A DNA stretch of 64,000 nucleotides from Wenzhouxiangella sp. XN24 (GTDB lineage: Bacteria; Pseudomonadota; Gammaproteobacteria; Steroidobacterales; XN24). This document shows positions 868-40,428 of the stretch, in pieces. Position 1 is the stretch's first letter. Each line of letters begins with the position of its first letter. The notes under the pieces were generated by a model. It worked only from the letters and a program-made list of their open reading frames with translations, had not been told where the DNA came from and did no database searches. The stretch is from the NCBI RefSeq assembly GCF_011064545.1, contig NZ_JAAMFG010000017.1, positions 62,001 to 126,000 on the forward strand, in the 5' to 3' direction. Both the position numbers and the translations under genes were made by a program.

Positions 868-899
868 GGCTCCGCGGGCCGGGACGCGCCCGCGGAGCC
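868..899 (-). terminator. Perfect 12-bp inverted repeat, likely end of the TonB operon
   Basis: GGCTCCGCGGGC (868-879) and its exact complement GCCCGCGGAGCC (888-899) flank an 8-nt loop. The structure sits about 20 bases beyond the stop of the TPR gene, on the same strand. A weakly T-rich stretch rather than a clean T-tract follows on the minus strand, so it may be a Rho-independent terminator of modest quality or an RNA 3'-end-stabilising hairpin. Confidence 0.55.
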
Positions 900-918
900 G
901 GGCTGGGCGATGGGTACC

Positions 919-2834: not shown

Positions 2835-3244
2835 CAGCCACCTCCCGCGGGTTGCGCCGCGACCGATATGTTCAGGATGCCTCCCAGGCGCACCTGGTCC
2901 ATCAGGTCGATGAGGATGCCGGTCTCGGAACGCTCGTCGGCGATGATCACGACCGTGCTTTCCGGGCTCTCGTTGCGGGCCTGCTCGACGCGCTGCCGCA
3001 CAGCCTCCAGGGGCACCTCGCGCTTGTCCATCCAGATCTGGCCCGTGGCGGAGACGCCGATCAGGATGTTGCCGCGCGCCTGCTGGCTCGCGGTGAGCGC
3101 CTCGGGCCGCTGCGGGTCGATGCCCGTCTCGCGGATGAACGAGGTCGTGACGATGAAGAAGATCAGCATGATGAACACGATGTCCAACATCGGCGTGATG
3201 TTGATCTCGGCCTCTTCCTCGCGCGTCGCGTGCCTTCTTGCCAT
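2834..3244 (-). CDS. exbD: ExbD/TolR biopolymer transport protein (copy 1, next to tonB)
   Basis: A 136-aa component of the TonB motor. A short cytoplasmic N-terminus is followed by one transmembrane helix (about 19-38) with the proton-path Asp in PMLDIVFIMLIFF, then a periplasmic domain. Residues encoding the helix come from a 62-bp stretch identical in DNA to the second exbD (3150-3211 versus 3605-3666), while the rest has diverged strongly. It lies 44 bases downstream of the other exbD and is directly coupled to tonB. Having two different ExbD proteins suggests a hetero-oligomeric ExbD dimer or division of labour between the large and small ExbB proteins (inference). Confidence 0.93.
   Translation of the reverse strand: MARRHATREEEAEINITPMLDIVFIMLIFFIVTTSFIRETGIDPQRPEALTASQQARGNILIGVSATGQIWMDKREVPLEAVRQRVEQARNESPESTVVIIADERSETGILIDLMDQVRLGGILNISVAAQPAGGG
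3150..3211 (-). repeat. 62-bp direct repeat, copy A (exbD transmembrane region)
   Basis: Identical base for base to 3605-3666. It encodes the INITPMLDIVFIMLIFFIVT region of ExbD. The offset between copies is 455 bp. Confidence 0.95.
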
Positions 3245-3288
3245 AAGGTTGAGAGTCTCGCTGGGTGCCTAAAGTTTCGTGCCGCCGG

Positions 3289-3699
3289 TCAGCGCTTCGC
3301 CATCGCGGCGATCGAGACCTGGTCCGCTCCGGCCATCCGGGCCTGGTCGATGACCCGGACCATCAGCCCGGAATCCGACGCGCGATCGGCGATGACGACC
3401 ACCGGCGTGTCCTGTCCCTTGGTGGCGAGCTCGCCTTCCACGTTCGCCCGCACGGCACGAATATCGACCTGCCGGCCGCTGACTTCGATGACGCCCGTCG
3501 ACTCGATGCGGATCGCGATCACCTCGCTGATCTTCTTCTCTTCCTGCGGCTCGTTCGACGGACGATTGAGCTCCAGGCCGATTTCCTTGACGAAGGACGT
3601 CGTCACGATGAAGAAGATCAGCATGATGAACACGATGTCCAACATCGGCGTGATGTTGATCTCGGCTTCATCCTCGCTTCTGGCGATCCTGCGTCTCAT
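3289..3699 (-). CDS. exbD: ExbD/TolR biopolymer transport protein (copy 2, next to exbB)
   Basis: Second ExbD paralogue, also 136 aa, starting MRRRIARSEDEAEINITPML. It has one transmembrane helix with the same essential Asp (LDIVFIM) and a periplasmic domain clearly different from copy 1. The start is 13 bases after the exbB stop, so it is co-transcribed. With ExbB it should form the proton channel that drives TonB. The near-identical membrane segment against divergent periplasmic segments suggests gene conversion or strong constraint on the helix. Confidence 0.93.
   Translation of the reverse strand: MRRRIARSEDEAEINITPMLDIVFIMLIFFIVTTSFVKEIGLELNRPSNEPQEEKKISEVIAIRIESTGVIEVSGRQVDIRAVRANVEGELATKGQDTPVVVIADRASDSGLMVRVIDQARMAGADQVSIAAMAKR
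3605..3666 (-). repeat. 62-bp direct repeat, copy B (exbD transmembrane region)
   Basis: Exact match to 3150-3211, including all synonymous positions. See copy A. Confidence 0.95.
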
Positions 3700-3712
3700 G
3701 CCAAGTCAATCC

Positions 3713-4237
3713 TCAATGTCGGATCATGAGGGCTTCGGCCCGATCGATCTGCGCGCCGGCCTTTTTTTCCAGCCAGGCGGCGAAATAAAGTCCCGACAGC
3801 GCGGCCACGAGACCGGACATGGTCGGAATCGTCGCCTTGGAGACGCCACCCGCCATGAGCCGCGCGTTGCCGGTCCCGGCGAAGGCCATGACGTCGAACA
3901 CGGCGATCATGCCCGTCACCGTACCGAGCAGCCCAAGCAACGGCAGCACGGCCATCAGCGTCTTGATGAGCAGGAGGTAACGACGGCTCTCGAGCTTGAC
4001 CTCCGAGATGACCCCGTTGCGCACCTGGTTGGCGTACCACGACGTCGTATCCTGCCGCGCGTCCCAGTTGGCCTCCACTTCGCGCAACCGCCCGGGCATC
4101 ACGAAATAGAAGTACCAGATCCGCTCGATGATGAACGTCCACATGAGCACCGTCACGACCAGGATGCCGTACAGGACGTTGCCGCCCATTTCGAAGAAAT
4201 CCCGGATCGATACGAATGCATCGACGAACGGGTTCAT
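3713..4237 (-). CDS. exbB: ExbB/TolQ/MotA-family proton channel (small ExbB)
   Basis: A 174-aa inner-membrane protein with three predicted transmembrane helices (about 17-40, 90-115, 132-155) and the family signature LPLLGLLGTVTGMIAVFD. It pairs with ExbD to use the proton gradient. It overlaps the upstream TtpC-like gene by ATGA (4234-4237). It is shorter than E. coli ExbB (about 244 aa) and has the size of the ExbB2 proteins of TonB2 systems. Confidence 0.93.
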   Translation of the reverse strand: MNPFVDAFVSIRDFFEMGGNVLYGILVVTVLMWTFIIERIWYFYFVMPGRLREVEANWDARQDTTSWYANQVRNGVISEVKLESRRYLLLIKTLMAVLPLLGLLGTVTGMIAVFDVMAFAGTGNARLMAGGVSKATIPTMSGLVAALSGLYFAAWLEKKAGAQIDRAEALMIRH

Positions 4238-5577
4238 CTGCCGGCTTCCGACTGCTTCGCGATGATGCCCGCGCTCTGCTCCTCCAGCACTTCGATGAGC
4301 GCCTTGCTGCGGCTCGCCACCACGCTGTGCAGCAGCACCAGCGGAATCGCGACCGTCAGGCCGAGCACCGTCGTGACGAGTGCCTGGGAAATACCGCCGG
4401 CCATCAGCTTCGGATCACCGGTGCCGAACAGCGTGATCGCCTGGAAGGTCGCGATCATGCCGGTCACGGTGCCGAGCAGGCCGAGCAACGGCGCGACCGC
4501 GGCGATGACCTTGATGGCCCCCTGCCAGGTCTCCAGCTTCGGCACTTCCCTGAGGATCGCCTCGTCGAGCTTCAGCTCGAGCGTCTCGGTGTCGGCGTCC
4601 GTGTTGTCCTCGTAGACCTTCAGGATCCGGCCCAGCGGATTGTTCTCGGTGGCCGTCTCCTTCTTCAGCTGGCCGCGGATCTTGGTGCCTACGGTCGTGA
4701 GATAGATCCAGCGCACCAGCGCGATCAGCAGGCCGACGATGCCCAGCGCGATGATCACGTAGCCGACCACGCCGCCCTGCGCCGTGCGCTCGGCCAGGCT
4801 CGGTTCCTGGATGAGCAGCGCGAGCAGCGAGCCGCGGCCCGGATCGACCGCCGCCGCCACCGTGGTGTTCGGGCTCGCCTCGAACAGGTTCTGCGCCATC
4901 GACACGTAGCGCGCCTGCGGCTGGCGGGCGAGCTCGAGGATGGTCTGCGTCTCGGGAATGTAGTTCAAAAACCCGTTGTCCGAGATCAGGTTGAAGACAC
5001 CGACCCGGACGACCGTCTCCTCGGCCGAGGTGCCGTCGGGCTTGGTGACGGTGGCGTCGAAACGGGCCACCTTGGCGCTGCGGACCATTTCTTCCGTGAG
5101 CAGCGCGCGCAACGCATTGAGATCTTCCATCGACGGCACGCCGCGCACCTTGGCGAGACGCTCGGCGAGCTCCTCGCGATTCGGATCCTGCGCAGTCACC
5201 AGCGAGGTCCGGATCAGGCCCACCGTATCGCCCGAGACCTGCCGGACGACACCGAACAGCTCGCCGAAGTTGCCGAGCTGGGTGCGCAACGTGTCGTTGA
5301 GTTCCGCCAGCTCCAGTTCGTTGGCGTTGAACTGGTTGGTGAGCTCGTCGCTGCGGCGCTCGGCGGCGGCCAGTTCCTGGCGCGCCTGGTTCAACAGCTC
5401 GCGCTGCTCGTTGCGGTTCTGCAAGAAGCGGCGTTCCCGCTCCTGGTTCTCCGCGCTGAGCTGGCTGCGGGACTCGCGGACCTGTTGCAGCAACTCGTCG
5501 AGCGAATCGACGGCGAGTGCCGGCGAAGCCCCGAGGGCGACCGTCAACGCGGCCGCGGCAAGAATGAACTTTCTCAT
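4234..5577 (-). CDS. TtpC-like large MotA/TolQ/ExbB protein with periplasmic domain
   Basis: A 447-aa protein. It has a signal peptide (about 1-22), a long coiled coil (about 30-145), a globular periplasmic part, then three transmembrane helices (about 268-291, 355-380, 398-423) with the ExbB signature APLLGLLGTVTGMIATF. This architecture matches TtpC of Vibrio TonB2 systems, an extra ExbB-like protein needed there for energy transfer across the periplasm (established for Vibrio). The start is set at 5577 because MRKFILAAAALTVALG gives a clean signal peptide and overlaps the DUF3450 stop by ATGA; the frame stays open further upstream but that extension only shadows the previous gene. Confidence 0.88.
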   Translation of the reverse strand: MRKFILAAAALTVALGASPALAVDSLDELLQQVRESRSQLSAENQERERRFLQNRNEQRELLNQARQELAAAERRSDELTNQFNANELELAELNDTLRTQLGNFGELFGVVRQVSGDTVGLIRTSLVTAQDPNREELAERLAKVRGVPSMEDLNALRALLTEEMVRSAKVARFDATVTKPDGTSAEETVVRVGVFNLISDNGFLNYIPETQTILELARQPQARYVSMAQNLFEASPNTTVAAAVDPGRGSLLALLIQEPSLAERTAQGGVVGYVIIALGIVGLLIALVRWIYLTTVGTKIRGQLKKETATENNPLGRILKVYEDNTDADTETLELKLDEAILREVPKLETWQGAIKVIAAVAPLLGLLGTVTGMIATFQAITLFGTGDPKLMAGGISQALVTTVLGLTVAIPLVLLHSVVASRSKALIEVLEEQSAGIIAKQSEAGR

Positions 5578-6353
5578 TGCACCTGCTCCGTCTCGGGGGC
5601 GGGAACCGGAAGGCGCAGCAGGTTCGGTGCAGCCTGTTGCCGGGCGATCCGCAGCCCCTCGACCACGTCGTTGCGGTAGTCGTTGGCGACTTCCCATTCG
5701 CCGGTGTTCTTGTTCCAGAACCCCGTTTCCTCGCGATCCGGCGTCTGGTAGGCCAGCAGGATCCTGCCGACACGGAGGAAATCGACCTTGCGGTCGCCGA
5801 GCTGGCCGTCGTAGGCCTCGGTGGTCCGGCCGAAATCGGCCTCGATCTGGTAGGCGTTCATGATCTGCCGGTACCGCTCGGAGACGGTGACGTCGGACTG
5901 CTCCATGATCTCGCGAAGCATCTCCACCCGGTTGCGGCGTTCCTGGAGCTGGAACGGCATGTCGAGCTCGATGAAGGTGGCCAGGTCCTCGATCATCTCG
6001 AACATCAGCGGGATGATCTCCTGCTGGACCTCCTGGAAACTGACCAGCTGCCGTTCGATGTCCTGCTTCTCGCTCTCCTGGTCGTTGACCAGTGCCGCCA
6101 GGTTCTCGTTGTAGATCTGGACCCGGTCGAGGCGCTGGATCACCACGCGGTAGTCGCCGAGAAGCTCCGTCGTCTCATCGGCCAGCTGGGCGATCCGCGC
6201 CTGTGAGCGCGCCGCATCCTGGACACTGGACTTCTGTTCCGCCAGCGCGGTGTTCAGGGTGCGTTGTTGCGCTGCGGCCGAGCCGAGCGGCAGCACCACC
6301 GCCAGCGCCAGGGCGGCGAACGCACTCGGGCGCCATCTCCTGATTTGATGCAT
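5574..6353 (-). CDS. DUF3450 periplasmic coiled-coil protein
   Basis: First gene of the TonB operon, 259 aa. A signal peptide (cleavage near GSAAAQQ, residue about 28) is followed by a long alpha-helical or coiled-coil part (about 35-125, rich in Q/E/L) and a C-terminal region with the family-typical WNKNTGEWEVANDYRNDVVEGLRIAR. DUF3450 proteins are regularly encoded just before a TtpC-like protein and ExbB/ExbD (known genomic association), so it is probably a periplasmic partner of the TtpC-like protein. Its biochemical function is not known. An AGAGG ribosome-binding site lies 5 bases before the ATG. The promoter should be within 6354-6485, but I see no convincing -35/-10 pair. Confidence 0.85.
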   Translation of the reverse strand: MHQIRRWRPSAFAALALAVVLPLGSAAAQQRTLNTALAEQKSSVQDAARSQARIAQLADETTELLGDYRVVIQRLDRVQIYNENLAALVNDQESEKQDIERQLVSFQEVQQEIIPLMFEMIEDLATFIELDMPFQLQERRNRVEMLREIMEQSDVTVSERYRQIMNAYQIEADFGRTTEAYDGQLGDRKVDFLRVGRILLAYQTPDREETGFWNKNTGEWEVANDYRNDVVEGLRIARQQAAPNLLRLPVPAPETEQVQ

Positions 6354-6485
6354 GAGAACCTCTTCGATAGGACAGAGACAGGTATGGGGTACGGCCGCAG
6401 GCGGAGCCGCGGGAAGCGTGAGAAGCTAGCAGAATCATCCGCCGATGAAAAGCGCGCCGAGGCGGAAGAACCGGCACCCGGAGCC

Positions 6486-9400
6486 TCACATGTTACGGCG
6501 GTATTGCCCTCCGACGGAGTAGAGCGTCCGGCTGATCTGCCCGAGGGAACGGTGCTTGACGGTCTCCATGAGGGCGCCGAAAACGTTGCCGCCGCTGGCG
6601 GCGATCCCGGCAAGGTCCTCCAGGGCCCGTTCCCCGGCCGCGCCACCCAGCGCATTGAAAGCCCTGGCGGCCTCTACCTGGGCCTTTTTCTCGTGCTCCC
6701 CGGACCGGATCAGCTGGCCCTCCTCGACGGAGGCCTCGCCGGCCCCGTCCGGGCCCAGGAAGGTGTTGACGCCTACCAGTGGCAGGCTGCCGTCGTGTTT
6801 CTTGTGCTCGTAGTACAGGCTTTCCTCCTGGATCCGGCCCCGCTGGTACATGGACTCCATGGCGCCCAGCACGCCGCCGCGCTCCGCGAGCCGTTCGAAT
6901 TCCTGGTACACGGCCTCCTCCACCTGGTCGGTCAGGTAGTCGATCGCAAAGGACCCCTGCCAGGGGTTCTGGTTGCGGTTGAGCCCCAGTTCCCGGTTGA
7001 TGATCAGCTGGATCGCGACCGCGCGGCGCACCGAGGCCTCGGTCGGCGTGGTCAGCGCCTCGTCGAAGGCGTTGGTGTGCAGGCTGTTGCAGTTGTCGAA
7101 CAGGGCGTACAGCGCCTGCAGCGTCGTGCGTATGTCGTTGAATTGCATCTCCTGGGCATGCAGGCTGCGCCCGGATGTCTGGATGTGATACTTGAGCATC
7201 TGGCTGCGCGCGGAGGCGCCGTAGAGCCGCTTCATGGCGCGCGCCCAGATGCGTCGCGCCACCCGGCCGATCACGGCGTACTCCGGATCCATGCCGTTGG
7301 AAAAGAAGAACGACAGGTTGGGCGCGAACTCGTCGATCTTCATGCCCCGCGCAAGGTAGTACTCGACGATGGTGAAGCCGTTCGCCAGAGTGAAGGCGAG
7401 CTGTGTGACCGGGTTCGCGCCCGCTTCCGCGATGTGATAGCCGCTGATCGACACCGAATAGAAATTCCGCACCCCGGCGTCGATGAAGTACTGCTGCACG
7501 TCGCCCATCATCCGCAGGGCGAATTCCGTGGAGAAGATGCAGGTGTTCTGGGCCTGGTCCTCCTTGAGGATATCGGCCTGGACCGTGCCCCGGACCTTCG
7601 CCAGGGTCTCGGCCCGGATGCGCGCGTAGGTCGCCGCATCCACGACCTGGTCGCCCGACAGGCCCAGGAGCCCGAGCCCGGAGCCGTCGTGCCCCTCCGG
7701 CAGGGTGTCGCGATAGCGGGGGCGGCGCTCTCCCAGCAGGGCCTCGATGCGGCGCTCGGCCTCCGGCCAGCCGCCCGTGGCGCGGAGGTGGCGCTCGACC
7801 TGCTGGTCGATCGCGGTGTTCATGAACATCGCCAGGATCATCGGCGCCGGGCCGTTGATCGTCATGGAGACCGAGGTCGCCGGGTCGCACAGGTCGAAGC
7901 CGGAGTAGAGGCGCTTCATGTCGTCCAGGGTGGCGATCGAGACGCCGGAATTGCCGATGCGGCCATAGACGTCGGGTCGCTCGTCGGGATCCTCGCCGTA
8001 CAGGGTCACGGAATCGAAGGCCGTCGAGAGTCTCGTGGCGGCATGCCCGCCGGCCAGGTAATGGAAGCGGCGGTTGGTGCGCTCGGGCATGCCCTCGCCG
8101 GCAAACATCCGGATCGGGTCCTCTTCGACCCGCCGGTAGGGATAGACGCCGCCGGTATAGGGATAGGCGCCGGGCAGGTTCTCGCGCAGCAGGAAGCGCA
8201 GCAGCTGGCCCCAGTCCTCGTATTGCGGCGCCGCCAGCCGCGGCAGCGGCAACCGGGCCAGCGATTCGGTGTAGTTCTCCCCGGTCAGTTCGCGGTCCCG
8301 GACCCGGTAACGGTACTGCGGGGCCTCGATGCCCTCGCGGCGTGCCGGCCAGTCCTGCAGCAGGCCGATGCATTCCGGCCCCAGGGTGTCGAGCGCCTCG
8401 TTGTAGCGCCGCCGCACGCCCGCCAGCGCATCGTCGCCATGAAGCGCCTCGGCCGGGTAGGGATGCAGCGCCGCCGGCCGCGCCGGATCCAGGCCCTCCA
8501 GCGCCCGCCAGCAGGCCCAGGCGGTGGCGGCGGCCTCCGCCGCATGCTCGGCATCGTGGTTGGCGCGCCGGCCGTCCTCGGCGATCTCGGCGAGATACCG
8601 GACGCGGCGCGGGGGAATCAATGCACCGTGATCGGTGGCGGCCGGCAACGCCGGCGGCGTCCAGTCGGCCGCCTCCACGCCACAGCGGGCCACGATCTTC
8701 TCGCACAGCGCGGTGAACAGTCGGTTCACCCCCGGGTCGTTGAACTGGCTCGCGATGGTCGGGTACACGGGCACGTCGTCGTCCGCCAGGTCGAAGGCCT
8801 TGCGGTTGCGCTTCCATTGCTTGCGCACGTCGCGCAAGGCGTCCTCGGCGCCGCGCTTCTCGAACTTGTTCAGCACCACGATGTCGGCAAAATCGAGCAT
8901 GTCGATCTTTTCCAGCTGGCTGGCGGCGCCGTATTCGCTGGTCATCACGTACACCGGCAGGTCCACGAGATCGACGATCTCGGTGTCGCTCTGGCCGATG
9001 CCCGCCGTCTCGACGATCACGAGGCCGAACCCCACCGACTTGAGGAACTCGATGGCCTCGGCGAGCGCGGCGCTGGTCGCCAGGTGCTGTCGCCGGGTGG
9101 CGACCGAGCGCATGTAGATGCGCTCGTCGGACAGGGCGTTCATGCGGATCCGGTCGCCGAGCAATGCGCCGCCGGTGCGCCGGCGGGTCGGATCGACCGC
9201 CAGCACCGCGATCGGCCGGTCGGGAAAACTCCGCAGGAAACGGTTCAGGATCTCGTCCGTGAGGCTCGATTTCCCGGCGCCGCCGGTGCCCGTGATGCCG
9301 ATCACCGGAACCCGGCCGGCCGTCTCCTCGCGCGGACCCCGCAGCACCACCGTGGATTCCGTGTCGTCGGCCGACTGCTCGATCAGGCTGAGGCTGTGGC

Positions 9401-25360: not shown

Positions 25361-26469
25361 TGGACGCCGCCGACAGCGCCCGCCTCCCGGTGACCCCGCT
25401 GGCGCGTTACGAGGCCGAGATCGCACGGCTCGGCTGGGTGGCGGATCCTCACCAGGCCGCCGCGGTGGAACGCCTGGACGCGTTGCACCACGCGCTCGTG
25501 ACGGCGCCGCCACGCAAGAAGCGCCTGTTTCGCAGAACCCGGCCCGTCGCGCCCGTGCGCGGGCTTTACCTGTGGGGCGGGACCGGGCGCGGCAAGACCT
25601 GGCTCGTGGATCTCTTCTACAAGTGCCTGCCGTTTCGCGAGAAGATCCGGCGGCATTTCCACCGCTTCATGGCCGATGTGCACGCAGAGCTCAGGGCGCA
25701 TGCCGATCATGCCGATCCGCTGGAGAAGGTGGCCGACCAGCTCGCGGGGCGCGCCCGGGTGATCTGCTTCGACGAATTCTTCGTTTCCGACATCGCCGAC
25801 GCCATGATTCTCGGCCTGCTGTTCGAGAAGCTGTTCGCGCGCGGCGTGACCCTCGTGGCCACCTCGAACGTGGCGCCCGAGGACCTCTACAGGGACGGAC
25901 TGCAACGCGCCCGCTTCCTGCCCGCCATCGAACAACTCGAGCGCCACACCGAAGTCTTCCCCATCGGCGGGGATACGGATTACCGCTTCCGGCTCCTCGA
26001 GCGCGCCGAGATCTACCGCGTCCCCCTCGGCGACGCCGCGGAGCGCGGGCTGGAAAAATTCTTCGCGGACGCCGCGCCCGAGGATACGCGCAACCACGGC
26101 GACCTGCGCGTGCTGGGGCGCACGATCCCCGTGCGCTGCCGCGCGGATGGCGTGGCGTGGTTCGATTTCGTCCCACTGTGCGGCGGGCCGCGCAGCCAGG
26201 CCGACTACATCGAGATCGCACGCAGCTTCCACACCGTGCTGGTGTCCGGCGTGCCGCAGTTCGGCCCCGACAACGACAACGAGGCGCGCCGCTTCATCGC
26301 GCTCGTGGACGAGTTCTACGAGCGCAAGGTGAAGCTCATACTGTCGGCCGCGGTGCCGCCGGCCGTGCTGTACACCGGCTCACGGCTCACGTTCGAGTTC
26401 CAGCGCACCATCAGCCGGCTCGAAGAAATGCGCAGCGCAACCTACCTGGCCGCACCTCACCTGCCCTGA
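25360..26469 (+). CDS. zapE: Cell division protein ZapE (AFG1-family ATPase)
   Basis: P-loop ATPase of 369 aa, known in E. coli to associate with the Z-ring under low oxygen or stress; the yeast homologue AFG1 acts in mitochondrial protein quality control. Walker A is GGTGRGKT (73-80), Walker B is RVICFDEFFVSDIAD, and the C-terminal FVPLCGGPRSQADYIEIAR block is family-typical. It is translationally coupled to aacS, an unusual partnership. Its 3' end overlaps the convergent crcB by 13 bases. Confidence 0.93.
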
Positions 26470-26912
26470 TACGCCCGTCGTGCCAGGGCGAAACCGGCCC
26501 AGGCCGCGCCCAGCCACGCGAGCGCGGAGCCGAGCGCATAGGCTCCGGCCCATCGCCAGCCCGATACCTGGAGAGCCCCCAGGGTCTCGAGACCGAACAT
26601 CGAGAAGGTCGTGAAGCCGCCGCAGAAGCCCGTCATGAAGAACAACCGGGTGGGCACGCTGTGCGCCCACGGGCCACCCGGCGAGACGAGCGAGGCATAG
26701 GCGCCGACCAGGAAGGAACCGCTGAGGTTTACGATCACGGTGGCCCAGGGCATGTCGCCGCCCTGGTCCGCCAGGAGGCCGGACAGGCTCCAGCGCAACG
26801 TGCCGCCGAGTCCGCTGCCCACCGCGACCGCCAAATAACCCGGCCATCGATCGCGCCTGGATGCCGCTTGCATGACAGGCGTATCGCTCACCACCCTGAT
26901 CCCGACAGCCAT
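26457..26912 (-). CDS. crcB: CrcB/Fluc fluoride channel subunit (second copy)
   Basis: Small membrane protein of 151 aa with four predicted transmembrane helices and the fluoride-pore signatures GGTLRWSLS, VNLSGSFLVGAYA and GFCGGFTTFSMFG. Fluc channels are dual-topology dimers that export fluoride. With the adjacent, different copy (26888-27319) this looks like a heterodimeric pair as in Gram-positive bacteria. The start at 26912 overlaps the upstream crcB by 25 bases; an alternative ATG at 26873 (MQAASRRDRWPG) gives a more usual N-terminus. No fluoride riboswitch motif is visible nearby. Confidence 0.9.
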   Translation of the reverse strand: MAVGIRVVSDTPVMQAASRRDRWPGYLAVAVGSGLGGTLRWSLSGLLADQGGDMPWATVIVNLSGSFLVGAYASLVSPGGPWAHSVPTRLFFMTGFCGGFTTFSMFGLETLGALQVSGWRWAGAYALGSALAWLGAAWAGFALARRAYQGR

Positions 26913-27319
26913 GCGCCGACCGAGACGCCCGCGGCGACCGCCGGCAGGCACAACCCAAGCGACAACCCGATATTTGCGGCGACGGCCCGCCAGCGGCCTG
27001 CATGTGCCAAAGCCAGGCTCTCCAGGCTGAAGGACGAGACCGTGGTGTAGCTGCCGAGCACCCCGATGCCGAGCAGCCACCAGGCCGTGCCGGGACTGCC
27101 ACCGGCCAGTCCGCCGGCCAGTCCGCCCGACACTCCGCCCGCCAGCCCGCTCGACAGGACGCCCGCCAGCACGCCGATCGCCAACGCGCCGCTCATGTTG
27201 ACCGCGAGCGTGTGCCACGGGAAGGCGGTGCCGAAGCGGCGCGCCACGCATGCGCCGAACCACATCCGCGCGACGCCGCCCAACGCACTGCCGACGAGGA
27301 TGGCGGCGAGCTCGGACAT
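26888..27319 (-). CDS. crcB: CrcB/Fluc fluoride channel subunit (first copy, Gly/Ala-rich insert)
   Basis: A 143-aa CrcB homologue. Family motifs are GSALGGVARMWFG, VNMSGALAIGVLAG and GSYTTVSSFSLES. Between helices it carries a low-complexity run built on GGLAGG/GGVSGG units (about residues 68-83, bases around 27100-27160). It lies 4 bases after the stop of the M14 peptidase, so it is probably transcribed with it. The two CrcB copies differ clearly in sequence, so a heterodimer is expected. Confidence 0.88.
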   Translation of the reverse strand: MSELAAILVGSALGGVARMWFGACVARRFGTAFPWHTLAVNMSGALAIGVLAGVLSSGLAGGVSGGLAGGLAGGSPGTAWWLLGIGVLGSYTTVSSFSLESLALAHAGRWRAVAANIGLSLGLCLPAVAAGVSVGAWLSGSGW

Positions 27320-27323
27320 GGTG

Positions 27324-30236
27324 CTAGGGCAATGGCACCGGCCGGCTTGCGCCCATCCCGGGCCCGAGGACCAGGGCGTTCTCCAGCACGCGCATCGCGC
27401 CGAGCTGGGCCGCACGGAAGGCCGGGGCGCTGGCGAACAGGATCACCTGCCCGCGACCGATCGACTCGCGGGTCACCCAGGCCGACGACGCGATCCGGTC
27501 GCGTGCTTCGGGCCATAACAAGCCCGACATGCGCACCTGCAATGCCTGGCCTTCGGGCACCGGGGCCCAGTTCAGGGTGGCGGCGTCGGTGTCCGCCGGC
27601 CGGTAGACCCCGATGCGCATGGGCGCCTCGATCGGGGGGGTGGACATCAGTATCGGCGAGTCGGAATACAGCACGGGCAGGACGGGCCCGACTCCGGCCG
27701 TCAACCAGTGTCCCGTGTCCACGCGGGTGCCGACGAGCGCGCCCGAGGGCATCAGCATGGCTTGCCACGCGTCGAGCCGCGCTCGCGCCTCGGGCTCGGC
27801 AAGCCCGTCATCGGCGCCCCACGGCGGACTGTCGCCCGGTGTCGCCTCGCGGCCCCAGGCCAGTTCATCATCCGGCAGGGGCCGGCCGGCCAGCCATTCC
27901 CGGTGAATCGCGTCCTGGTAGGAAGCGACGTCGCCGTCGATCACGTCGGAAAGCAGGCTCGTCGCCACCCAGGTCGAGTCGGCATCCGCCAGTTCCCGCG
28001 CGGAATGGCCCACCGCCACAAGAGTGCCGCCGGCGCGCACCCAGTCAGTCAACGCCGTCACGAGCGCGTCGGGCAGCGGCGCCCGTCCAAGCCGTTCGGG
28101 CAGGTAGATCACGTTGTAACGCCTGAGGTCGAAACTGCCGGCGCGCTCCTCGTCGAGGTGGCTGTGGCGAATGCCGATGCGATGATCGAGCAGGTACCAG
28201 GCGGCGCCGAAATCCAGCATGTTGGTCTGGCCGCGCGACAGCAGGGCGATCTGCGGCCTGGCCAGGAGGCGCCATTGCTGCCCGCCGAGATCCGCGAGGT
28301 CGCCAGGCGCGCGACCGTGTGTAATCACGTGCAGGCGGATCCCGAGTTGCGCAGCCACCTCGCGGGCGTCCTCGCGCCAGCCGTCGCCGTCGCGATTGTC
28401 GTCGCGCGTCAGGGCGATGGAGCCGATCGGCAGCGCATGGTCGCCGAGTTGGGAGGGTTCCCGGTTGGCCCGCACCGCGTGACCCCGCTCCATCATGCGG
28501 GCCGCGAACGCCAGCGCCCGGTCATCGGCACCGGAGACCGCCAGCCCGATCATGGCCGGTTCGCTGGTCGCCGGAGGCGTCGCGGCCGTCTCGGCGCCAG
28601 GCCACTGGATCGCCTCCAGGCCGGCCTCCAGGTGCTGCGGCACGGTCAGGGCGTCGAGGCCGAACATCATCGAGACGTTCCAGGCGGTCGTGTCGTAGAT
28701 CGTGCTGCGCCCGCGCTTGAGCACCTGCTCGCGTTCCGTGGCCAATGCCTGTGCGGACATGCGGGGATCGAATTCGAACATCGCGGCGAGCACCCGGCCC
28801 TCGGGCTGCCGGTTGCGCAGCACGATGCTGCCTGCAGGCAGTTCATGGTTGCGAAGTTGCCGGCCGAACTGGTCGGTGGCGACGCCGACGCGCAGCGCGC
28901 GGGTCAGGCGGTGCACTTCGAAGCCCTGGATCCGGACCAGGTCCAGCAGGTCGTTGAGCCGCCCCGCGTTATCGGTTGGCAGGACGACGAAACTGCGGTC
29001 GGCATAGGGCCCGCGGGCGGAGGCCACGTTGGCGCGATCCGTGACGAAGGTCTCCAGCATGTTGCGCCGCTCGCGGCGCAGCGTCTCGAGGTTCGCGAAC
29101 GAGGAGATGACCTGGTGGTGGACCGACTGGCGATAACTCAACAGGCCGGCATGACGCTGCACCCCGTCCTCCGCGATGCGCGCCTGCTCGTAGAGAATGC
29201 CGTGCGCGCCGCGCAATCCGGCCCAGGCGTCGCTGTAGCCCGGATACCAGTCTTCGTGCCACTCGCCGGAATAATACGGGTACCCGAAGCGGTCGAAGGC
29301 GCGCGCCTGGTCGGTCGCAAAGACCTGGCCGATGACCTGGCGGTAAGGCGGATGGTTGGGGTTGTGCGGCTCGCGGGACGGCGAGAACAGGTAGGTGTCC
29401 TGTGCGCCCATCTCGTGCGCGTCTATGTACAGCAAGGGCCGCCATTCCAGGAACGCGGCAATGCGCCCGCGGGTTTCCGGGTGGCGCGCATAGATCCAGT
29501 CGCGGTTGAGATCGAACAGGTAATGATTGCCGCGACCGTAGGGCCAGTATCCCGTGTGCAGCGTGGACTGGTCGTCCACGTTCGGCTGCACGCCGCGGGT
29601 CTCCGCCATGCTCTTCACGAAGCGCTCCCGGCCGTCCGGGTTCTTGTTCGGGTCGATGATGACCACGAGCTCATCGAGCAGGCGGCGCGTCGTGTCCGAG
29701 CGGTCGGCGGCGAGATGATGGATCACGGTGAGCGCGGCATCCGAGCCGGAGGTCTCGTTGCCATGGATCGAGTAGCCCAGCCAGGCGACGCCCGGCAGGG
29801 TGTCCAGCAATTCGTCACGCCGCGCCGCGCCGAGTCCGCGCGGATCGGCGAGGGCCGCCATGCCTTCCTTGATGCTTGAGCTGCGCGCCAGGTTCTCCGG
29901 GCTGGATATGACCAGGTAGACCAGCGGCCGCCCGCCGTAGCTGCGCGCGTATTCGGTCAGCTCCACGCGTGGCGAGGCCTCGGCCACCGCCCGCGCATAG
30001 GCGACGATCTGCTCGGAGGTCGCGGCGCGCCGACCGTTCTCGGCAGCCGTGAACGCGTCCGGCGCAGGCACGGACGGATCGTGGTCGGCGCCGTCCGGGT
30101 ACAGCGACTCGCCGTATGAAATGCCCTCGAGCGGTGAAGGCCCTGGCGCCGGATAGGGTGTCTCGGCGGCCGGCGCCGCGACGGGCAACAGGATCATCCA
30201 CAACGACGGGAGCGCGATACGCACCAGGTTCAGCAT
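27324..30236 (-). CDS. Secreted M14-family zinc carboxypeptidase with C-terminal amidotransferase-like region
   Basis: A 970-aa protein. It has a signal peptide (about 1-24) and an N-terminal M14 peptidase domain with zinc ligands H158/E161 in SIHGNETSG and a third His at 274 in YIDAHEMG. A long C-terminal part contains stretches such as YNVIYLPERLGRAPLPDALV and WVRAGGTLVAVGHSA that resemble a class I glutamine-amidotransferase-like fold. M14 enzymes trim C-terminal residues from peptides or cell-wall fragments. Export suggests work on peptides in the periplasm or outside, which fits the amino-acid-degrading gene content. The exact substrate is unknown. Confidence 0.87.
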   Translation of the reverse strand: MLNLVRIALPSLWMILLPVAAPAAETPYPAPGPSPLEGISYGESLYPDGADHDPSVPAPDAFTAAENGRRAATSEQIVAYARAVAEASPRVELTEYARSYGGRPLVYLVISSPENLARSSSIKEGMAALADPRGLGAARRDELLDTLPGVAWLGYSIHGNETSGSDAALTVIHHLAADRSDTTRRLLDELVVIIDPNKNPDGRERFVKSMAETRGVQPNVDDQSTLHTGYWPYGRGNHYLFDLNRDWIYARHPETRGRIAAFLEWRPLLYIDAHEMGAQDTYLFSPSREPHNPNHPPYRQVIGQVFATDQARAFDRFGYPYYSGEWHEDWYPGYSDAWAGLRGAHGILYEQARIAEDGVQRHAGLLSYRQSVHHQVISSFANLETLRRERRNMLETFVTDRANVASARGPYADRSFVVLPTDNAGRLNDLLDLVRIQGFEVHRLTRALRVGVATDQFGRQLRNHELPAGSIVLRNRQPEGRVLAAMFEFDPRMSAQALATEREQVLKRGRSTIYDTTAWNVSMMFGLDALTVPQHLEAGLEAIQWPGAETAATPPATSEPAMIGLAVSGADDRALAFAARMMERGHAVRANREPSQLGDHALPIGSIALTRDDNRDGDGWREDAREVAAQLGIRLHVITHGRAPGDLADLGGQQWRLLARPQIALLSRGQTNMLDFGAAWYLLDHRIGIRHSHLDEERAGSFDLRRYNVIYLPERLGRAPLPDALVTALTDWVRAGGTLVAVGHSARELADADSTWVATSLLSDVIDGDVASYQDAIHREWLAGRPLPDDELAWGREATPGDSPPWGADDGLAEPEARARLDAWQAMLMPSGALVGTRVDTGHWLTAGVGPVLPVLYSDSPILMSTPPIEAPMRIGVYRPADTDAATLNWAPVPEGQALQVRMSGLLWPEARDRIASSAWVTRESIGRGQVILFASAPAFRAAQLGAMRVLENALVLGPGMGASRPVPLP

Positions 30237-30292
30237 GGTTCGGGTTCCGGAATCAGGGGAGACCCCGAAAGTTTAAGACACCTGGGCGCAAA

Positions 30293-31024
30293 CTATCGAG
30301 CGCGCATGCGTACAGCGCCGCTGCGCACCCCGTCCGAGACCGCGATATCGAGCGCCATCGCCTCCGTCGAGACCACCAGTTCCCCTGCGCGCCCGGCACC
30401 CAGCGCCAGGCCGGTCTTCGCGTCATGCACATGCAGCAGGACGAAACGCCCCGGATCCCAGCGGATTCCGACCGCATCGCCCGGGCGTCCCTCCACCGAC
30501 AGGCCCTCACCGCGCTCCAGCGCAGCCTCGAGTCCGGCGCGTGAGAGGCGGGCCTCGCGCGCCCATTGGCGACCGTCCGCTGCAGTCAGTTCGACCCGGG
30601 CGAGCTGCGCGGCGCCCCCCGGGACCTCCGCGACGAACATGAACCGGCGCGCCGGACCCGGGGAAACGGCGACCAGCGCCGCGGCGCCGAAGCGCATGGC
30701 GAACAGCTCTGCACCGGCGTCATCGAAACCGCGCAAGCGGTAGGGTGCTGCGGATTCGAGCGCAGAAGGATCGGGGTCGCTCGGACCGGCGGTGACCACC
30801 ACCGGGTCGAGCCCGAAGGCCTCCGTATCGATCCGGCCGCTCAACATCACGCGCTCGTCCCCGAGGCGACGCTCGAGCGACCAGGCGTCGTCACTCATGG
30901 TTCCGGCCGCATGCTCGCCGTGCGGCGGCGCGTTGCAGGCGGCGAGCCCGATCCCGCTGGCCAGGAGGAGCGCCGCCCACGGGCTGCGTTTGAAGCCGGG
31001 CCGACAACGTGCCGCCGGGATCAC
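30293..31024 (-). CDS. Lipoprotein co-translated with the metzincin lipoprotein
   Basis: A 243-aa predicted lipoprotein; no family recognised. The start is GTG at 31024, overlapping the upstream protease stop by GTGA. The N-terminus is followed by a hydrophobic stretch ending in the lipobox LAAC (Cys about residue 35), then a mature region rich in beta-strand-like segments (ELTAADGRQWAREARLSR, IRWDPGRFVLLHVHDAKT). The tight coupling suggests a functional link with the metzincin lipoprotein, perhaps as partner, inhibitor or chaperone. This is inference from position only. Confidence 0.7.
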   Translation of the reverse strand: MIPAARCRPGFKRSPWAALLLASGIGLAACNAPPHGEHAAGTMSDDAWSLERRLGDERVMLSGRIDTEAFGLDPVVVTAGPSDPDPSALESAAPYRLRGFDDAGAELFAMRFGAAALVAVSPGPARRFMFVAEVPGGAAQLARVELTAADGRQWAREARLSRAGLEAALERGEGLSVEGRPGDAVGIRWDPGRFVLLHVHDAKTGLALGAGRAGELVVSTEAMALDIAVSDGVRSGAVRMRAR

Positions 31025-33396
31025 TTCTCCTGCCACTGCGGCGTCGCACGCATCGTCTGCACGCCATCGGAAAACAGGAGCTCCGGTTCGGTCCCGGCGA
31101 CAGCCTCGGCCGACAGGCTCAGGTCGCCGCTGCGGCCGATCGCCATGATGTGGCCCGAGCGACGGTCGCGCAGCATCGCCACGGGGCTTCGCGCCCTGTC
31201 CCAGCGCACGCGCAGGCCGCCGCCGGGCAATGCATCCTGCCGCACCGCCTGCATCGCCTCGCTGGCCTTCGCGGGCGCGGGACCGGAGCCTGCGGCCGCT
31301 TCCAGGACATGGCTGGCGCGCCCCTGCGGACCGGCCAGCTCGATCGTATGCAGGGCCGCAAAGTCGGCCTCCGCCAGCGGGACGAAGTAGGAGAAATGTC
31401 GCGCCGCAGGATCCGCGGCATGCGGGACGGTCACGCCGGCGAATGACAGGTCGAACACGACGCGCCCGTCTGCCGCGAGGCCCCGCAACCGATTCGGGCC
31501 GTCTTCGTCCGGCAACACCGGCGCGGCTTCCAGGCGGAACGCCGGATTGAGCTCCACTCCGTTCGCGCCGGTGCGCCCCCACAGCAGCAGACCCGGGCGA
31601 GGGAGGGCGTCGGCATCCACCGCCGCCCCTTCGTCCCCGGCGACCGCCAGCGGATCGTTGCGGCGCCAGTCGAGAATGCCCTGGTAGGTGTAGTCGCTCG
31701 TCCAGCGGGGCCGGCAGTAGCCCATGTAATCGCTGAAGTCGGACGCGCTGCGCAGAAGCCTGTCCGTGACGTCGTAGCCGGGCATGACCGTGGCGCCTCC
31801 GGGATAGGGAAAATTCGGGTCCGGGGAATCCGGGTCGCCGCAGGGAGCATGCATCCGGCCCAGGTTATGCCCCAGTTCGTGGGCCACCGTCTCGGCCGCG
31901 CCCGGGAGGTGGTCGAAACTCAGGGCGCTGCGAAAGGAGCTGGATGGGAATGATGGACGGAAAGCAATGCCCGAAATAGGCAAGCCGCTGACGCGCGGGA
32001 TGATGCCGTGATAATAGCGATCACCGGCCGACTCCAGGCTTCGCGCCGCCTGCAGGTCGGACAGCAGCTGGCCGATGGCGTCCTGGTCGGTGAGGTCCGC
32101 ATCGGTGACGAAATTCGTCCCGCGCAACTCCGCCTGGATCTCGGCCGTGGGCAACCAGCGACGTGTCGAGGCCAGGAAATTCTCGACGTTTTCCGGAAAG
32201 ATGCCGCCTGTCCGGCCGTGGGCCGTCGCCTCGATCGGGATGAACAATATCCGCAGCGGCGCGAGCGTTCTCACCTGGACCGGGGCTGCGCCGCTGCCGA
32301 CCGGGAAACGCATCGAGTCCCGCGAACTGACCGTGACCAGCTCCTGGGGATCCGCCACCACCTCGAGGCTCATTCCGGGGCGGATCTCGTCCCCGGTGAG
32401 CGCGAGGTTCCAGGTCTGCACCACCGACGACAGGTCGGGATCGGTCGGCACGCCGCTCAGCGGCGCTGGAATGATCTCCGTCCACAGCGGCGCGCCGTCC
32501 TGGAACAGCCGGACGCGCACCTCCGGACGCGCAGTGTTGCTGCGGTTCGCTTTCAGCATGACGCGTAGAAGGCCCGGGCGCCCCGCCACGAGATCCACAT
32601 CGCCGCTGGGGCTCTGGGTTCCCTGGTTGATCTGCACCGATTCGATCGAAAGAGCGAGCGCCTCGAGCGCCTCTGCCGTGAAGACGACGTCGGGGAGGCC
32701 CGGATACACGGCGCGCACGACGTTGCTGCCGGGATCGGACCCGAGCGTCCAGGCCTGTAACGTGGCCACCCCGGCGGCACTGGTCAACGCAGGACTTCCC
32801 GAGATCGATCCGCCGCCCTGCTCCACCACGAACGACAATGTTTCGCCGGGGATCGGGTTGCCGAAGGCATCCAGCACGCGCACCGCGGGCGGCTGGGCAA
32901 CCGCGCCGCCCTGCTCTCCCGACTGGGCCAGGCTGCTGACCGCCTCGAGTCGATTCGGCGGACCCGGCATCGCGGCGACACTGAAACGTTGCTCGCCGCC
33001 GCCGGTGGCTGTCGCCACGAGCACCTGCGTGCCCGCCGCACCGCCGAGTGTCCATGCCGACGGCCGGGCCCGGCCGTCGGCGCCGGTGACGGCCGTGGCC
33101 GGCGAGACCGAACCGCCCGGCTCGACGCGGAAACTGACCGTCACGCCGCCGATCCCGGCGCCGCTGCCGTCGACGACCCGGATGCCGGGCACGACGCCCA
33201 GCGGCTCGCCGACGGTTCCGGTGCTGTCGCCGGCGACATCCGCCACCATCCGCTGGACTGATCCGATCGAGTCGGCCTCTCCGCCGCCGCCGCCACCACC
33301 GCCGCCACACGCTGCGAGCAGCGTGAAGACGGCCAGCGAGGCCACGCCCCGCCGCCAGGCGAATCGCCGAAGACCGGGTTCTGCAATCGTCTTCAT
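31021..33396 (-). CDS. Metzincin-type metalloprotease lipoprotein with Ig-like repeats
   Basis: A 791-aa protein. The lipoprotein signal has its lipobox LLAAC at Cys30, immediately followed by nine glycines. Two bacterial Ig-like repeats follow (about 45-145 and 150-245; note VRVLDAFGNPIPGETLSF). The protease domain has zinc motif HELGHNLGRMH (His506, 510, 516; HExxHxxGxxH) and a plausible Met-turn (DFSDYMGYC). This is the metzincin pattern, nearest in feel to M66/reprolysin-like enzymes. The C-terminal part looks beta-rich. It is probably surface- or outer-membrane-anchored. The substrate is unknown. Confidence 0.8.
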   Translation of the reverse strand: MKTIAEPGLRRFAWRRGVASLAVFTLLAACGGGGGGGGGEADSIGSVQRMVADVAGDSTGTVGEPLGVVPGIRVVDGSGAGIGGVTVSFRVEPGGSVSPATAVTGADGRARPSAWTLGGAAGTQVLVATATGGGEQRFSVAAMPGPPNRLEAVSSLAQSGEQGGAVAQPPAVRVLDAFGNPIPGETLSFVVEQGGGSISGSPALTSAAGVATLQAWTLGSDPGSNVVRAVYPGLPDVVFTAEALEALALSIESVQINQGTQSPSGDVDLVAGRPGLLRVMLKANRSNTARPEVRVRLFQDGAPLWTEIIPAPLSGVPTDPDLSSVVQTWNLALTGDEIRPGMSLEVVADPQELVTVSSRDSMRFPVGSGAAPVQVRTLAPLRILFIPIEATAHGRTGGIFPENVENFLASTRRWLPTAEIQAELRGTNFVTDADLTDQDAIGQLLSDLQAARSLESAGDRYYHGIIPRVSGLPISGIAFRPSFPSSSFRSALSFDHLPGAAETVAHELGHNLGRMHAPCGDPDSPDPNFPYPGGATVMPGYDVTDRLLRSASDFSDYMGYCRPRWTSDYTYQGILDWRRNDPLAVAGDEGAAVDADALPRPGLLLWGRTGANGVELNPAFRLEAAPVLPDEDGPNRLRGLAADGRVVFDLSFAGVTVPHAADPAARHFSYFVPLAEADFAALHTIELAGPQGRASHVLEAAAGSGPAPAKASEAMQAVRQDALPGGGLRVRWDRARSPVAMLRDRRSGHIMAIGRSGDLSLSAEAVAGTEPELLFSDGVQTMRATPQWQEK

Positions 33397-33489
33397 TGCA
33401 CCATTCTCCCCACGAGCGCCGCCCGCTACCTGTTACACATCACATTTTTCGACCGTGGGAGGGCGTCAAGATTCAATCAACTCGACGAT

Positions 33490-33999
33490 TTACCGTGTCG
33501 GCGGGCACCAGCCGGACTCCAGCGCGCGCACCAGGATGCGTGCGCAGGCCGACGCGTCGGATGCCGCATCATGATGCCGGAGCGGAATATCGAGCGCCCG
33601 GCAGACCAGCGGCAGCTTCGTCGGGTAGATGCCCCAGACCTGGCGCGCGACCTGCACCGTGCACAAGAAGGGCGTATCGACGGAGGCCAGCCGGTACGTC
33701 CGGCAGCACGCATCGAGCACGCCGCGATCGAAAGGTGCATTGTGCGCTGCGAGCCAGTCCACCTCATGCAACCAGGGCTCCAGCCGCGGCCAGGCCTGGT
33801 CGAACAGCGGCGAACCCGCGACGTCGTTCCAGCACAGGCCGTGGATATGGGTGAACACGAATTCCGGCTCCGGAGGCCGGATCAGGAAGGCGTCCTCGGC
33901 GACGATGCGCCCGTCCTCGATCAAGGCCAGCCCGAGCGCACAGGCGCTGTCGCGGGCGTGGCTGGCGGTCTCGAAATCGAGCGCAAGTATGCGTGTCAC
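33490..33999 (-). CDS. DEDDh-type 3'-5' exonuclease (DnaQ-like)
   Basis: Stand-alone RNase T/DnaQ-fold exonuclease of 169 aa. ExoI is LALDFETA with the first acidic pair, ExoII lies around AHNAPFDRGVLD, and ExoIII is HHDAASDASA with the catalytic His and Asp. The start is GTG at 33999 (VTRILALDFET); the frame stays open upstream, but that stretch overlaps the next lipoprotein gene and lacks homology. Similar small exonucleases act in DNA repair or RNA trimming. The specific role is not evident. Confidence 0.85.
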   Translation of the reverse strand: MTRILALDFETASHARDSACALGLALIEDGRIVAEDAFLIRPPEPEFVFTHIHGLCWNDVAGSPLFDQAWPRLEPWLHEVDWLAAHNAPFDRGVLDACCRTYRLASVDTPFLCTVQVARQVWGIYPTKLPLVCRALDIPLRHHDAASDASACARILVRALESGWCPPTR

Positions 34000-38481: not shown

Positions 38482-40428
38482 TCAGCGCTCCCGGCCGGCG
38501 GCCAGGGCGGCGCGGCGCTCCTCGAGCGCCAGCCATTGGTTCGTCAGGCGGTCATGTTCGGCCTGCTTCCGGGCCAGGGCATCGATGACCGGCTGGGTCA
38601 GTTCCCAGGGCTGCGCGTAGAACTCCGGCGCCGCCATCCTGGCCTCGAGCGCGGCGATTTCGTCTTCCAGCGCATCGATCCGTCCCGGCAGCGCATCGAG
38701 CTCGCGCTGCTCCCGGTATCCCAGTTTGTGCGCCGTGCGCGCCGGCCGCCCGGAACCCCCCGGCGCCTCTGCGGGCGTCGCGCCCGGTCGCGGTGCCGCA
38801 CCCTCCGAAGACATCGCCTCCGCCGGCGCTTCCATCTCTGCCAGCTCGCGGCCGCGCCGCACCCAGTCGCTGTAGCCGCCGACATATTCGACCAGTTGTC
38901 CGCCCGCCTCGAAAACGAGGATGCGGTTCACGACGTTATCCAGGAACTCGCGGTCATGGCTGACGACGAGCAGGGTGCCCGCATACTCGGCCAGGCGGGC
39001 CTCGAGCACTTCGAGCGTTTCCACGTCGAGGTCGTTGGTCGGCTCGTCGAGCACCAGCAGGTTGCTCGGCTGGGTGAACAGTTTCGCCAGGATCACGCGG
39101 TTGCGTTCGCCCCCGGACAACGCGGCGACCGGCGTCAGGGCCCGCTTGGCGGTGAACAGGAAGCCGCCGAGGTAGCCCACGACGTGCTGCGGCTTGCCGT
39201 TCACGACGACGTGGTCGCGGCCGTCGCCGACGTTGTACGCGACGCTCTTGTCGTGCTCCAGCAACTGGCGCATCTGGTCGAAATACGCGATCTCCAGGTG
39301 CGTGCCCTGCTTGATGGTGCCGGCCTGCGGCTCCAGCTCGCCGAGCAGCAGCTTCAGCAGGGTGCTCTTGCCGACACCGTTGTTCCCCACCAGGCCGAGG
39401 CGGTCGCCGCGCATGATCTTCAGGTCGAGTGCGGTGATCAGGGGCTTTCCGTCGTAGCCATAACTGACATTCTTCGCCTGCAGGACCTTGCGGCCGGAGC
39501 TTTCGGCCTCGCCGATGCTGATCCGCGCGGTGCCGGGGCGCTTGACACGCTGGGCGCGCTCCTCGCGCAATGCCTCCAGCGCGCGCACCCGGCCCTCGTT
39601 GCGGGTCCTGCGCGCCTTGATGCCCTGCCGCACCCAGGCTTCCTCGCCGGCCAGCTTGCGGTCGAACTCGGCGTTCTGCCGTTCTTCCTCCTCGATGGCG
39701 TCGGCCTTGCGCCGCAGGTAGTCACGATAGTCTCCCGGCCAGCTGACCAGCTTGCCGCGGTCGATTTCCGCGATCCGGGTGGCGAGGCGCTGCAGGAATG
39801 CCCGGTCATGGGTGATGAACAACACCGCGCCCGGCCAGTTGACGATGCGCTGCTCCAGCCACTGGATGGAGGACAGGTCGAGATGATTGGTGGGCTCGTC
39901 GAGCAACAGCAGGTCCGGCCTGCTCACGAGCGCCCGCGCCAGTGCGGCGCGCCTGCGCCACCCGCCGGACAGCGCGCCGAGCGGCTGATCGCCGGGCAGC
40001 TTCATCTCCGTCAGAAGCGTGTCCACCGCGCGTTCGACGTTCCAGCCGTCGGCCGCGTCGATCCGCCGGTGCAACGCCTCGAGATCACTCAGTCCGTGCG
40101 AGCCGAGCTCGGTGTGGGCCAGCCGCTCGTATTCCGCGACCAGGGCGCGCACGGGTGCCAGTCCTTTCATCACCGATTCGCGCACGGTGGAATCCAGCTC
40201 GTCGGGCAGATCCTGTTCGAGCCGGCTGACGCGCAGTCCGGCGCGCGCCTGTATTTCCCCGTCGTCCGGCGCGATGCTCCCCGAGATGAGCTTGAGCAGC
40301 GAAGTCTTACCCGCGCCGTTGCGCCCGATCAGGCACACGCGCTCGCCGGCCTCGATGGTGAAATCCGCAGCCGAGAGGATGGCCTGGTCGCCGAAACGTA
40401 GTGAAACCTGGTCGAATCGAAGCAGCAT
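38482..40428 (-). CDS. uup: ABC-F ATPase Uup
   Basis: Soluble ABC-F protein of 648 aa that acts on ribosomes or DNA intermediates; Uup loss in E. coli raises precise transposon excision. The two ATP-binding cassettes have Walker A GRNGAGKTS and GNNGVGKST, signatures LSGGWRRRAALARAL and LSGGERNRVILAKLF, and Walker B LLLDEPTNHLD and LVLDEPTNDLD. The C-terminal coiled coil (about 570-645) distinguishes Uup from EttA and YbiT. It is divergent from yceH. Confidence 0.93.
   Translation of the reverse strand: MLLRFDQVSLRFGDQAILSAADFTIEAGERVCLIGRNGAGKTSLLKLISGSIAPDDGEIQARAGLRVSRLEQDLPDELDSTVRESVMKGLAPVRALVAEYERLAHTELGSHGLSDLEALHRRIDAADGWNVERAVDTLLTEMKLPGDQPLGALSGGWRRRAALARALVSRPDLLLLDEPTNHLDLSSIQWLEQRIVNWPGAVLFITHDRAFLQRLATRIAEIDRGKLVSWPGDYRDYLRRKADAIEEEERQNAEFDRKLAGEEAWVRQGIKARRTRNEGRVRALEALREERAQRVKRPGTARISIGEAESSGRKVLQAKNVSYGYDGKPLITALDLKIMRGDRLGLVGNNGVGKSTLLKLLLGELEPQAGTIKQGTHLEIAYFDQMRQLLEHDKSVAYNVGDGRDHVVVNGKPQHVVGYLGGFLFTAKRALTPVAALSGGERNRVILAKLFTQPSNLLVLDEPTNDLDVETLEVLEARLAEYAGTLLVVSHDREFLDNVVNRILVFEAGGQLVEYVGGYSDWVRRGRELAEMEAPAEAMSSEGAAPRPGATPAEAPGGSGRPARTAHKLGYREQRELDALPGRIDALEDEIAALEARMAAPEFYAQPWELTQPVIDALARKQAEHDRLTNQWLALEERRAALAAGRER

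Follow-up and report, generated by a model that had tools for sequence, protein, structure and literature searches.

A metzincin lipoprotein of Wenzhouxiangella and its partner lipoprotein, a diverged copy of the protease family's own C-terminal module

A lipoprotein gene that begins within the stop codon of a protease gene raises the question of where the smaller protein came from and what it does beside the larger one. The two genes were found in a stretch of 64,000 nucleotides (nt) from Wenzhouxiangella sp. XN24 (contig NZ_JAAMFG010000017.1, positions 62,001 to 126,000), called the window here. The gene at 33396..31021 starts with ATG and encodes a metzincin lipoprotein protease of 791 amino acids (aa; P0001) with homologues over nearly its full length, and the gene at 31024..30293 starts with GTG and encodes a lipoprotein of 243 aa (P0002), called the partner; both lie on the minus strand, as do all features described within them. 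The protease stop and the partner start share the bases GTGA (31021..31024). An earlier reading, made from the sequence alone, had noticed the pair and the second gene starting within the first stop codon, and the exact open reading frames (ORFs) bear this out at 31024..31021. To our knowledge, the origins of protease partners are seldom readable. Here one can be read: by sequence and profile comparison the partner is a diverged stand-alone copy, descended from the C-terminal module of its own protease family, a descent that the sequence-only reading overlooked.

The relationship was detected at several levels of comparison. BLASTP aligned partner residues 59-235 with protease residues 603-781 at 28% identity (E 3e-10), and a search of the genome with either protein returned the other as the sole second match (E 3.1e-7 and 2.1e-8). 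The match scored 48.9 bits, whereas the highest score among 2000 shuffles was 24.3. When a five-partner profile was compared with one built from twelve protease modules, hhalign gave a probability of 99.9% (E 3.8e-34) over 176 columns spanning both beta domains, and the strand order in the models of the partner and of the protease module is identical by eye. Profile homology over both beta domains thus places the partner in the C-terminal module family of these metzincins, for which no family name was found. In the protease, the part matching the partner is a module of two beta domains at about residues 600-784 (31045..31599), delimited by sequence comparison; in the partner, it covers residues 58-243 (30296..30853), delimited by the profile match and by blocks of predicted local distance difference test (pLDDT) scores. 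The partner model has a mean pLDDT of 76.4, with block means of 60-95 at residues 61-90 and 82-95 from residue 91 on. The copy acquired its own signal peptide, which ends in a putative lipobox with Cys30 (GLAAC; cysteine codon at 30935..30937); the lipoboxes of both proteins (LAAC) and of other lipoproteins were called by eye.

How old the copy is was addressed with two trees. A tree of 35 rows of C-terminal modules unites the five intact partners in a single clade (100/99) and places the six partner-bearing proteases in a second group (92/93); within each of the two, the loci L003 and L004 of the genus are closest to each other, and L167 lies nearer the genus with weak support (94/60 and 83/37). 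The second tree was built from the catalytic region and omits the module; of 114 rows ranked by BLAST it takes the top 60, some of them overlapping loci of one gene. There too the partner-bearing proteases make up a single clade (100/99), in which all six distinct sampled members have a partner, one of them disrupted. That clade sits among Gemmatimonadota sequences, adjoining L114 (89/82; from the same genome as L044), downstream of which no partner was seen within 4.2 kb. A recent, species-level duplication was rejected as the origin of the partner by the approximately unbiased (AU) test (p 4.6e-6), as was a genus-level one (p 0.0016). By these trees the copy predates the genus, and the two genes are passed on together as one cassette. 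Most simply, the duplication would have happened once, before the lineages split, and the cassette probably moved into the genus from the Gemmatimonadota side by transfer. A second, independent case, also read from the module tree, is found in Pseudohongiella (L069), where the protease is followed by a free-standing module that has, by eye, a signal peptide and is sister to that protease's own module (99/95); joining it with the partners as one family was rejected (AU p 1.9e-42).

The distribution was surveyed from the family outward. Within the family, the protease was found in 3/7 genomes, all of this genus, with the partner in each of the three; nothing matching the protease turned up in the remaining four genomes, which represent three other genera. 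The genus locus has the same flanks in the three genomes (an M14 gene at 73% identity and ORF 38485-40428 at 74-76%), which makes contamination unlikely. Across the order, some match to the protease was seen in 22/196 genomes, several of them to the leader or the Ig-like part alone, while a strong partner match was confined to the three genus genomes, beside three weak ones (G061, G068 and G090; E about 1e-4). A first scan of genome contigs found no relative, viral contigs gave two short matches only, and a scan of named genomes gave at least 65 loci, at least 33 of them titled Gemmatimonadota; among the matches listed in that scan, the best had 40% identity over query residues 3-540 of 545. 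In the class of the window's genome, the module profile, with at most 9 candidates per genome scored, recovered 1/369 genomes, the window's own. For the class to which G561 belongs (the Gemmatimonadota genome that contains L045), it recovered the module in at least 132/295 genomes (11 candidates per genome scored); the two class samples have no listed genome in common. At least two genomes of that second class carry the pair, at three loci (L133 and L134 in G561, L167 in G736), and the matches listed in the partner-profile scan there, which scored 7 candidates per genome, included the two partners that the profile itself contained, the disrupted copy and two short contig-end pieces (L141 and L211) that are indistinguishable from protease tails. 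Five of the six partner copies have an uninterrupted frame of full length; these keep the overlap, show a lipobox on inspection by eye and are 31-38% identical to the window copy.

Module-bearing metzincins are expanded in some Gemmatimonadota: G579 has 31 module matches and G571 (locus L056) has 23, some of them pieces of one protein, and both genomes are probably drafts from sponges; L095 of G579 holds three module-bearing proteases in tandem at positions 2-7847. Stand-alone, secreted-looking modules with no metzincin among the neighbours seen were observed at L138:3224-3796 and L215:2364-3002, in two genomes of G561's class (G571 and G600). In the window's own order, a family designated f12 (L030/G017, L031/G085, L032/G053, L034/G091) has the same metzincin and C-terminal module preceded by long leucine-rich repeats, as judged by eye; the open frames span 1,313-1,388 codons, two are truncated at contig ends, and some have leaders of cysteine followed by polyglycine.

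The overlap of the two genes is kept along with the pair. All three genus members have it, as GTGA in the window, ATGA in L003 and GTGA in L004, and GTGA recurs at L133, whose partner has a lipobox. At L167 the bases read GTGATG, so that a partner start at GTG gives a 4-nt overlap and one at ATG a 1-nt overlap. Such an arrangement would couple translation of protease and partner. RNA structure at the overlap did not rise above shuffles (z 0.83), and no Rfam match at the gathering score was found in the whole window. A consensus scan of 30100-33700 gave a single promoter-like site, on the opposite strand; the four terminator-like sites that it placed within the protease gene, three on the coding strand, were given no weight, with shuffles yielding 1.4 (sd 1.6).

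The pattern of change in the partner bears on what it does. For the three species pairs the partners are 38, 39 and 47% identical, against 56, 55 and 64% for the proteases. Partner codons differ most at the third position (0.58, 0.56, 0.48), then at the first and then at the second, as in a constrained protein. Within the module, the constraint has shifted: identity of domain B, the second beta domain, is 0.43 among partners and likewise 0.43 among proteases, and the inter-domain linker is more alike among partners than among their proteases (0.37 versus 0.21). GspD, of the type II secretion system, was found above the cut-off in all three genus genomes, so a type II route exists there.

That the two genes have remained side by side in distantly related bacteria suggests a functional unit. 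A model is put forward, tentatively and at somewhat less than even confidence, in which they form a cassette and the partner would assist the protease at the outer membrane as an accessory subunit. The first gene would supply a lipid-anchored metzincin and the second a lipid-anchored stand-alone copy of its C-terminal module, which may sit beside or on the exported protease and touch it through the conserved domain B and the linker. From there the partner could hold or steer the protease at the outer membrane, either escorting or restraining it during export or placing its substrate, and it would no longer mimic the position of the module on the catalytic domain. The paralogous origin of the partner suggests that a self-contact was converted, so that a contact between module and protease within one chain may have turned into a contact in trans. 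A broader version, in which a metzincin family converted a duplicate of its C-terminal module to a dedicated, lipid-anchored subunit controlling the protease in trans (chaperone or inhibitor), the cassette travels between distant groups and the module was freed again in Pseudohongiella, is doubtful, though worth stating.

Several observations weigh against the accessory-subunit model or against the history drawn from the trees. Domain A is the part of the module best kept in the proteases and the one that has diverged furthest in the partners (identity 0.37, against 0.52 among their proteases), which argues against a simple replacement of the protease's own module. In the draft genomes G561 and G736, GspD was not found and was below the cut-off, respectively. 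The placement of L167 differs between the trees, as it joins L133 on the catalytic-region tree (95/49), and a single clade of partners with their own proteases was not rejected (p 0.32) yet is absent from the best tree. At L134 the partner frame is disrupted (L134:5642-6487) beside an intact protease, in a genome that also holds the intact pair L133; either the assembly is in error or the cell may do without the partner. Finally, when proteases were distinguished by their last 150 residues (107) and the 103 with at least 700 nt downstream were inspected, a stand-alone module ORF within 600 nt downstream was seen in 7/103 (the genus three, L133, L134, L167 and L069) and in none of the other 96. 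The sequence-only reading had named absence of the partner gene beside homologous proteases as a point that would count against the pair, and the outcome is divided: the gene is absent in those 96/103 relatives and present in 6/6 sampled members of this clade.

The chief rival, possible but short of convincing, holds that the partner is a separately tethered recognition module whose ligand (glycan, matrix or substrate) is also that of the protease's C-terminal module; the partner would concentrate substrate or anchor the cell without binding the protease. Derivation from a non-catalytic C-terminal module and the partner's own putative lipid anchor agree with it, as do the many related proteases that match the module profile chiefly over domain A and the stand-alone secreted modules of G571 and G600. 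Modules adjoining metzincins can also be, or resemble, glycan-binding ones, judging from the portions available of the reports on Mep72, with its carbohydrate-binding domains, and CpaA, with its Ig-like repeats (PMC4334185; PMC7542363). However, no carbohydrate-binding family was recognised for the partner: the window copy matched nothing in Pfam or NCBIfam, and other members of its family gave three weak, unrelated Pfam matches (E 0.03-0.25). The partner profile met two unrelated chains among the sequences of the Protein Data Bank (PDB) at E<=10 and no relevant one. With the partner model, Foldseek listed six matches at E<=0.001, with template-modelling (TM) scores of at most 0.35, and VIA-align found only generic beta sandwiches, mostly for the second domain, with Z at most 7.6; the lack of fold matches within those lists is no proof of a new fold. 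Moreover, the gene overlap and the clade-wide co-inheritance exceed the needs of a free adhesin.

An unlikely alternative is that the partner serves as an inhibitor or immunity-like protein dedicated to this protease, keeping it blocked until it has left the cell, as CpaB or BamI might in function. In E. coli, Mep72 proves toxic unless the adjacent, co-transcribed bamI is present, and Mep72 and BamI form a complex, according to the part of that report available (PMC4334185); the partner here is likewise adjacent, smaller than the protease and probably lipid-anchored. Against this reading, the partner profile retrieved no relevant solved chain and the 96 relatives mentioned above lack such a neighbour; in the accessible parts of the sources, BamI has regions predicted to be unfolded and its gene precedes mep72, while CpaB is anchored by a transmembrane domain (PMC4334185; PMC7542363). 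The proposal of a surface protease with its own escort or inhibitor, made in the sequence-only reading, is upheld in part: the two genes do belong together, have long done so and are inherited as a pair, and chaperone or inhibitor partners adjoin other metzincins (CpaB, BamI), while a surface position and a role as escort or inhibitor would follow by analogy. Least probable is that the partner is a decaying relic of a tandem protease duplicate reduced to its last domains. In favour of it, relatives hold whole-protease tandem copies (three consecutive ones at L095), the partner has changed faster than the protease, and one copy is disrupted. Against it, 5/6 copies still have an unbroken, full-length frame with the overlap and, by eye, a lipobox, the codon positions vary as in a constrained protein, and the copy gained its own signal peptide.

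The protease itself was dissected along its chain. A lipoprotein-like signal peptide ends in a putative lipobox with Cys30 (LLAAC; cysteine codon at 33307..33309), followed by nine glycines at residues 31-39 (33280..33306), all encoded by GGN codons as first read. Two Big_1-type Ig-like domains occupy about residues 47-244 (32665..33258); Pfam Big_1 scores 47.4 bits in two stretches (cut-off 34.9), and the structures of invasin, FdeC and intimin match this part of the model. The model, built from a 48-sequence alignment, has a mean pLDDT of 89.3 and holds three beta domains beyond the Ig-like ones, at about residues 249-375, 600-700 and 719-784. The first of these, N-terminal of the catalytic domain (32272..32652), is recognised from the secondary structure of the model and is aligned in homologues. 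The catalytic domain at about residues 376-590 (31627..32271) is assigned by fold and profile matches: its best structural match is adamalysin (2aig; Z 15.4, root-mean-square deviation (rmsd) 3.0, 174 residues aligned), and the A3 profile matched acutolysin-C in the PDB (E 3.4e-7). The zinc-binding motif HELGHNLGRMH lies at residues 506-516 (31849..31881) and the Met-turn DYMGY at residues 556-560 (31717..31731). In the 48-row alignment H506, E507, H510, H516 and M558 are invariant, as are D556 and Y560, and the glycine of HExxHxxGxxH is replaced by serine in many relatives. The Ig-like domains, the zinc motif and the Met-turn at Met558 named in the sequence-only reading all stand, and the last two, with the adamalysin-like fold of the predicted model, identify a metzincin. 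Taken together, the sequence and the model indicate that the protease is most likely a lipid-anchored metzincin with a StcE-like order of parts, carried on an Ig-like stalk.

The glycine run, which had been given emphasis at first, proved to be a common tether in this genome. Its length varies with the species: nine residues in the window, seven in L003 and the sequence GGGSGGG in L004. In the window's own genome (G000), 5/7 places with a pattern of cysteine followed by five glycines are lipoprotein-like leaders, the protease included, and the leader as a special mark of the protease was rejected there. In the sister genomes such leaders make up 1/3 places (G005, the protease itself) and 0/3 (G006); reversed-pattern controls gave 0-2 places per strand, so single places can be chance. 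Downstream, an M14 zinc carboxypeptidase-like protein of 970 aa (27324-30236) starts 56 nt after the partner in the window, and a three-gene operon was considered. In the sister species (G005 and G006) the gap between the partner and the M14 gene is about 4.3-4.4 kb, and the gene is therefore not counted in the cassette. Further on, at 26457-27415 of the minus strand, lie two adjacent ORFs of the CrcB fluoride channel family, both above the Pfam cut-off.

Among the closest known systems is StcE of enterohaemorrhagic E. coli (Peptidase M66, PDB 3ujz), which has the same order of a beta domain, a catalytic domain and a C-terminal beta part. VIA-align superposed it on residues 248-777 of the model with Z 12.4 over 348 residues, but loosely (rmsd 7.7), and the window protease differs as a lipoprotein on a Big_1 stalk with a partner gene. 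The protease scores 16.3 bits with Pfam M66 (PF10462), under the gathering score of 20.6, and 41/48 homologues match that family at E<=0.01, with relatives reaching E 2.1e-10; the protease is thus near M66 without being filed there. The locus also points to a widespread StcE-like protease family, with the module in nearly half or more of the sampled genomes of one Gemmatimonadota class and many copies in some.

CpaA and its chaperone CpaB of Acinetobacter (M72) likewise combine a metzincin bearing Ig-like domains with an adjacent gene for a membrane-anchored partner, as far as the accessible text of that report goes (PMC7542363), whereas the partner here originated as a module of the same protease family. 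With the CpaA / M72 model (NF033511) the window protease scores 9.4 bits, far from the NCBI cut-off of 750. No homology of the partner to CpaB was found by the partner-profile search of the PDB sequences, a set that presumably includes the CpaB chain and did not extend to the BamI sequence. With the Mep72 model (NF052434), the protease was not listed at E<=1, a search in which the HMMER filters drop weak matches, and 7/48 homologues matched at E<=0.01 (best E 0.0006). Mep72 and BamI of Pseudomonas aeruginosa resemble the window pair in setting a metzincin with C-terminal modules beside a neighbour, which in their case is co-transcribed and forms a complex with the protease; apart from the gene order and the predicted unfolded regions noted above, the available part of the source mentions no paralogy between BamI and Mep72 (PMC4334185). 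InvL, an invasin-like lipoprotein displayed on the surface through the type II secretion system, resembles the stalked protease in its anchor, according to the portion of the report at hand (PMC9245377), but it is an adhesin and no protease, and a type II route for the window protease would follow by analogy with it. A limited search, of one open literature library and with few terms, returned no published case of a metzincin partner that had arisen from the protease's own C-terminal module, which does not prove that none exists. Retained for longer than the age of the genus, this partner offers a direct test case for the idea that partners may arise from an intra-chain contact made inter-chain. 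In conclusion, protease-partner pairs such as CpaA/CpaB and Mep72/BamI are known, and what the Wenzhouxiangella pair adds to them is a partner whose origin can be read.

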